A stretch of DNA of 39,879 nucleotides from an uncultured Marixanthomonas sp. (lineage in GTDB: Bacteria > Bacteroidota > Bacteroidia > Flavobacteriales > Flavobacteriaceae): contig CAJXPE010000002.1 in the NCBI GenBank assembly GCA_913057965.1, positions 1 to 39,879 on the forward strand, read 5' to 3'. The position numbers and the translations under genes were made by a program. Positions within the stretch are counted from its first letter, which is position 1. Every line of letters starts with the position of its first letter. Of this stretch, positions 39,246 through 39,879 are shown one piece after another. The notes beneath the pieces are model-generated. The model was given only the letters and a program-made list of their open reading frames with translations. It made no database searches and was not told the origin of the DNA.

Positions 39246-39839
39246 ATGTACCCACTACGAAGAAATCGACGATTACGAACCACTGAGTCCATTAGAAATC
39301 TAGTACAGGAAACCACGCTTTCTCCAAACGATTTTCTAGTTCCCCTTTTTGTAGTTGAAGGAAAAGGAGTTAAAGAAGAAATCGCTTCAATGCCCAACTA
39401 TTATCGCTATAGCCTAGATTTATTAGCCAAAGAAGTTAAAGAATTATGGAGCATGGGGTTGAAGTCGGTGTTACTTTTTGTAAAAGTACCCGAAAACTTA
39501 AAAGATAACAGCGGAACAGAAGCGTTGAATACAGAAGGCTTAATGCAACGGGCTATTAAAACGGTAAAAGACACAGTGCCAAATATGTTGGTGATGACCG
39601 ATGTCGCTTTAGATCCGTATTCAATTTTTGGCCACGATGGTATTGTTTCCGAAGGAAAAATTCTTAACGACGATTCTTCAGCAGTATTAGCTGAAATGGC
39701 TTTGTCACACGCCAAAGCAGGTGCCGATTTTGTAGCGCCAAGCGATATGATGGACGGTCGTATTTTTGAAATGCGTACGCTACTAGAAGATGAAGGATTC
39801 CACGAAACTGGAATTATGAGTTACAGCGCCAAATACGCC
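39246..39839 (+). CDS. hemB: Delta-aminolevulinic acid dehydratase (porphobilinogen synthase), 3'-truncated
   Basis: YPLRRNRRLRTTESIRNLVQETTLSPNDFLVPLFV, VMTDVALDPYSIFGHDGI, GADFVAPSDMMDGRI; genuine sequence ends at about 39839 where adapter begins. Confidence 0.95.
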
Positions 39840-39879
39840 CTGTCTCTTATACACATCTGACGCTGCCGACGACTCCTTA
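39840..39879 (+). other. Illumina Nextera/Tn5 adapter contamination
   Basis: CTGTCTCTTATACACATCT (Tn5 mosaic end) + GACGCTGCCGACGA (Nextera i5-side tail) + CTCCTTA (start of reverse-complemented i5 index). Confidence 0.97.

Follow-up and report, generated by a model that had tools for sequence, protein, structure and literature searches.

The window (the whole stretch of DNA analyzed, 39,879 bases) closes with an open reading frame of 204 residues that resembles hemB, the haem-synthesis gene for porphobilinogen synthase, and the question that this locus raises is how that reading frame came to its end. The gene may be truncated in the organism, it may be interrupted by a transposon, or its last codons may lie in bases that do not belong to the genome. 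The window is the complete contig C2 of a draft genome of 355 contigs and 3,052,781 bases (3.05 Mb; 90.7% complete), and its final base, 39879, is the true end of that contig.

Identity of the terminal bases

The features at the end of the window, all on the plus strand, are as follows.
39246 to 39839, plus strand: true 5' portion of the porphobilinogen synthase gene hemB, coding for residues 1–198 (NCBIfam NF006762, E = 2.3e-76)
39821 to 39839, plus strand: 19 genomic bases, TTACAGCGCCAAATACGCC, in common with the start of contig C95 (C95:50–68), based on identity with C95
39840 to 39858, plus strand: Nextera/Tn5 mosaic end (ME, 19 nt), CTGTCTCTTATACACATCT, exact match; artefact
39840 to 39860, plus strand: false C-terminus LSLIHI and stop of the 204-residue reading frame, from the ORF listing; the true continuation, SAFYGPF..., is on C95
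39859 to 39872, plus strand: part of the Nextera i5-side (Read 1) adapter, GACGCTGCCGACGA (PMC3906532); artefact
39873 to 39879, plus strand: CTCCTTA, i5 index S505 (GTAAGGAG) in reverse complement, present for its first 7 of 8 nt; artefact

Bases 39840–39879 are thus accounted for in full by CTGTCTCTTATACACATCT, GACGCTGCCGACGA and CTCCTTA. The ME was found without a mismatch and as a single copy in the window, where 0 copies were expected based on 100 shuffles, and with the bases that follow it makes up an i5-side adapter of 33 nt ending at 39872. It was an exact ME joined to GACGCTGCCGACGA that we took as the mark of Nextera i5-side contamination, and both are present at the window end. A search of the whole window against Rfam gave no match. 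The original prediction had described these 40 bases as a non-genomic Nextera i5-side adapter, and it was correct to the base.

The same prediction had derived CTCCTTA from index S505, an assignment now supported from two sides. In the literature, GTAAGGAG is listed as S505 (PMC7589761) and as 505 (PMC4712552). In other contig tails of the same assembly the i5 index is completed to CTCCTTAC and is followed by the P5 primer bases GTGTAGAT; CTCCTTACGTGTAGAT is present in such tails, and CTCCTTA in the window. The tail at 39840–39879 is a confirmed artefact and has no biological novelty.

That the first 19 nt of the tail are the Tn5 mosaic end could also be read as the border of a natural Tn5/IS50-like element, or of a transposon mutant, in hemB. 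However, the ME gives way to Illumina i5 sequence with a sample barcode rather than to transposon DNA, the rest of hemB is found directly on C95, and the assembly holds 444 copies of the ME at contig ends, in both i5 and i7 variants. A Tn5/IS50 insertion would be expected to show further transposon sequence past the ME, its other end and a duplication of 9 bp; the window instead has i5 adapter and index after the ME, and C2 and C95 overlap by 19 bp. We regard such an insertion as practically impossible. The warning that a Tn5 element called here would be an artefact was therefore well founded, given the barcode after the ME and the continuity with C95.

hemB is divided between two contigs

The reading frame at 39246–39860 ends in AKYA followed by LSLIHI and a stop, and those final six residues and the stop are coded beyond base 39839. 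In a profile search, the match to NF006762 (E = 2.3e-76) spanned residues 2–198. Being incomplete, this 5' part scored under the cut-off set for whole proteins. DNA alignments of hemB with close relatives stop at about 39838/39839, and the final genomic base is 39839. Among 20 other genomes searched, hemB was uninterrupted across the break in 14, with open frames of 325–359 residues, and in relatives of the same genus the gene is continuous at the break point.

The missing part of the gene was located with the C-terminal 131 HemB residues of a relative as the query. These matched a single place in the genome, C95:69–461, at 97% identity and with no stop. The first 49 bases of contig C95 are i7-side adapter; after them come TTACAGCGCCAAATACGCC and then TCAGCCTTTTATGG..., which codes for SAFYG..., the same residues as those found in relatives at that position. 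Across both contigs HemB amounts to 198 + 131 residues, compared with a 331-residue reading frame in a relative, so that C2 and C95 combined give a HemB of full length as well as a profile match.

The only feature in keeping with a hemB that is truly truncated in the organism, with adapter at the break by coincidence, is the stop that the contig presents after residue 204. Against this, C95 supplies the other 131 residues in frame, without a stop and with a 19-base overlap, and relatives have the gene at full length; true truncation is exceedingly unlikely. Since relatives and C95 carry the gene onward, LSLIHI and the stop are a translation of adapter, and hemB is intact in the organism. The 204-residue reading frame is made up of 198 genuine residues and LSLIHI from the adapter, and the intact HemB of ~329 residues is merely divided between C2 and C95. 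These data bear out two further points of the original prediction: that the terminal LSLIHI is adapter-encoded and that an annotated 204-residue hemB would be an artefact.

Adapter tails across the assembly and their proposed origin

Similar adapter tails are present on most contig ends of the assembly. Exact copies of the ME number 444 in the genome (231 on the forward and 213 on the reverse strand), whereas the control, the ME read backward, had 0 occurrences in the same genome. Among the ME places listed, reverse copies all sit within ~50 nt of where a contig starts and forward copies, on contigs of known length, all within ~50 nt of where it ends, so that every copy that could be placed faces outward. 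The i5-side form was present in 159 exact copies and the i7-side form in 218. To these counts we added a sample of 120 ends chosen regardless of adapter (both ends of C1–C40 and the left ends of C41–C80). Adapter was found at 89 of them: 85 had a recognizable i5 or i7 tail, two a shorter piece of the ME and two an imperfect tail.

All of the full tails fetched had either a single i5 index, CTCCTTAC, with the P5 bases GTGTAGAT, or a single i7 index, CTCTCTAC, with ATCTCGT (P7). In the index table of PMC7589761, CTCTCTAC is N707. Outward-facing adapters thus occur at the ends of many contigs with one index pair, and the library is therefore S505 x N707.

It is virtually certain that the tail in the window is untrimmed Nextera i5-side adapter, including the greater part of the S505 barcode, on the end of genuine hemB sequence; the likely cause is read-through. 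A chimeric ligation or mis-scaffolding could in principle have joined the adapter instead, and adapter inside some public phage records indicates that assemblies do join over adapter. However, the tail here is terminal and has the order of read-through (ME, i5, index), and the identical pattern is seen at several hundred other ends, which makes a chimeric join very unlikely.

In the read-through that we favor, DNA would have been fragmented in vitro by Tn5 (tagmentation), and reads longer than their inserts would have continued into the adapter on the far side. Without adapter trimming, these reads would have led a de Bruijn assembler, for which k = 55 fits, to extend contigs into adapter. Contigs would then stop in one of two ways. 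At most ends, those with 46–50 nt of adapter, adapter k-mers from many fragments would have merged; at others the reads would have been exhausted, leaving shorter tails, and the 40-nt tail of the window fits such a dead end. In the 120-end sample, tail length peaked at 46–50 nt with a maximum of 50. The longest suffix shared among ~130 ends was 55 bases, with no pair above this, and C1L and C5L had exactly 55 bases in common (9 genomic and 46 adapter). This one exact pair and the peak in tail length are what an assembly k of 55 fits.

C2 and C95 would have been left unjoined because their 19-bp overlap is below k. A single Tn5 insertion produces a duplication of 9 bp. The expected 9-bp duplication between neighboring contigs was not seen for C2 and C95, and since their overlap of 19 bp exceeds it, the two ends represent separate Tn5 cuts, ~10 bp apart, rather than the two sides of one cut. 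One candidate 9-bp overlap, of C1L or C5L with C60R, was set aside as too short to be trusted. Elsewhere in the assembly, trimmed ends C13R and C46R overlapped by 17 bases and C10R and C46L by 14, with no overlap reaching 8 bases in the reversed control; C13, C46 and C10 are probably neighbors, in that order, that were split by the same artefact.

These results remove a false gene end (the 204-residue hemB ending in LSLIHI) and a false transposon lead. As most contig ends in the assembly have about 20–50 nt of adapter, their practical value is in cleaning this genome: genes at affected ends may be called truncated or be given false termini, and short similarities between the contig ends of unrelated genomes may be adapter. 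On balance, we think that what the locus offers is not new biology; rather, a draft genome can probably be traced to its sequencing library through leftover barcodes, and neighboring contigs can probably be recognized by sub-k overlaps of their ends once adapter is trimmed off (e.g., C2–C95).

Adapter remnants in other public genomes

Adapter remnants in public genome sets are uncommon but recurrent. Of 396 genomes sampled evenly from the same phylum, this one included, 7 had the exact ME (6 of the 395 genomes of other species); only two of those six have it in multiple copies (8 and 21). When public species genomes were scanned, at least 117 adapter stretches came up, and many of those listed are in MAGs from SRR3933xxx runs. 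The Rhodopirellula MAG SRR3933181_bin.31 has 1366 exact copies of the ME, three times the count in the window's genome.

Phage records were also affected. The "complete genome" of Escherichia phage vB_EcoM_WFK has an internal Nextera adapter (MK373775.1, 149747–149782) where the gene for a long tail fibre is divided among separate CDSs, and the site is probably a false join over adapter. In Peduovirus P22H1 (LR595870.1, 1293–1330), adapter at 97% identity lies within an annotated terminase ATPase gene, and in the "complete genome" of Acinetobacter phage TAC1 (MK170160.1, 22697–22735) an adapter-like stretch (95%) separates two tail fibre genes.

Two runs were considered as the source library of the window's genome and rejected. 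SRR3933181 shares its i5, but N707 is absent from bin.31, where the i7 is CGAGGCTG; our literature search found no paper naming this run. The tails read in SRR9109402_bin.20 had one pair, S505 x AAGAGGCA, and that i7 excluded it as well.

The closest counterparts of the window's genome are SRR3933181_bin.31 and SRR3933287_bin.9, which likewise have the ME at contig ends, the S505 i5 and hundreds of copies per genome. In the tails read, each of the two showed a single index pair, in which the i7 is CGAGGCTG (N710 in the table of PMC7589761) rather than N707, and so they represent other libraries. Read-through into the adapters of Nextera and Nextera XT libraries with short inserts has been described (PMC3906532); in that case it was seen in raw reads, whereas here it has been carried over into assembled contigs.
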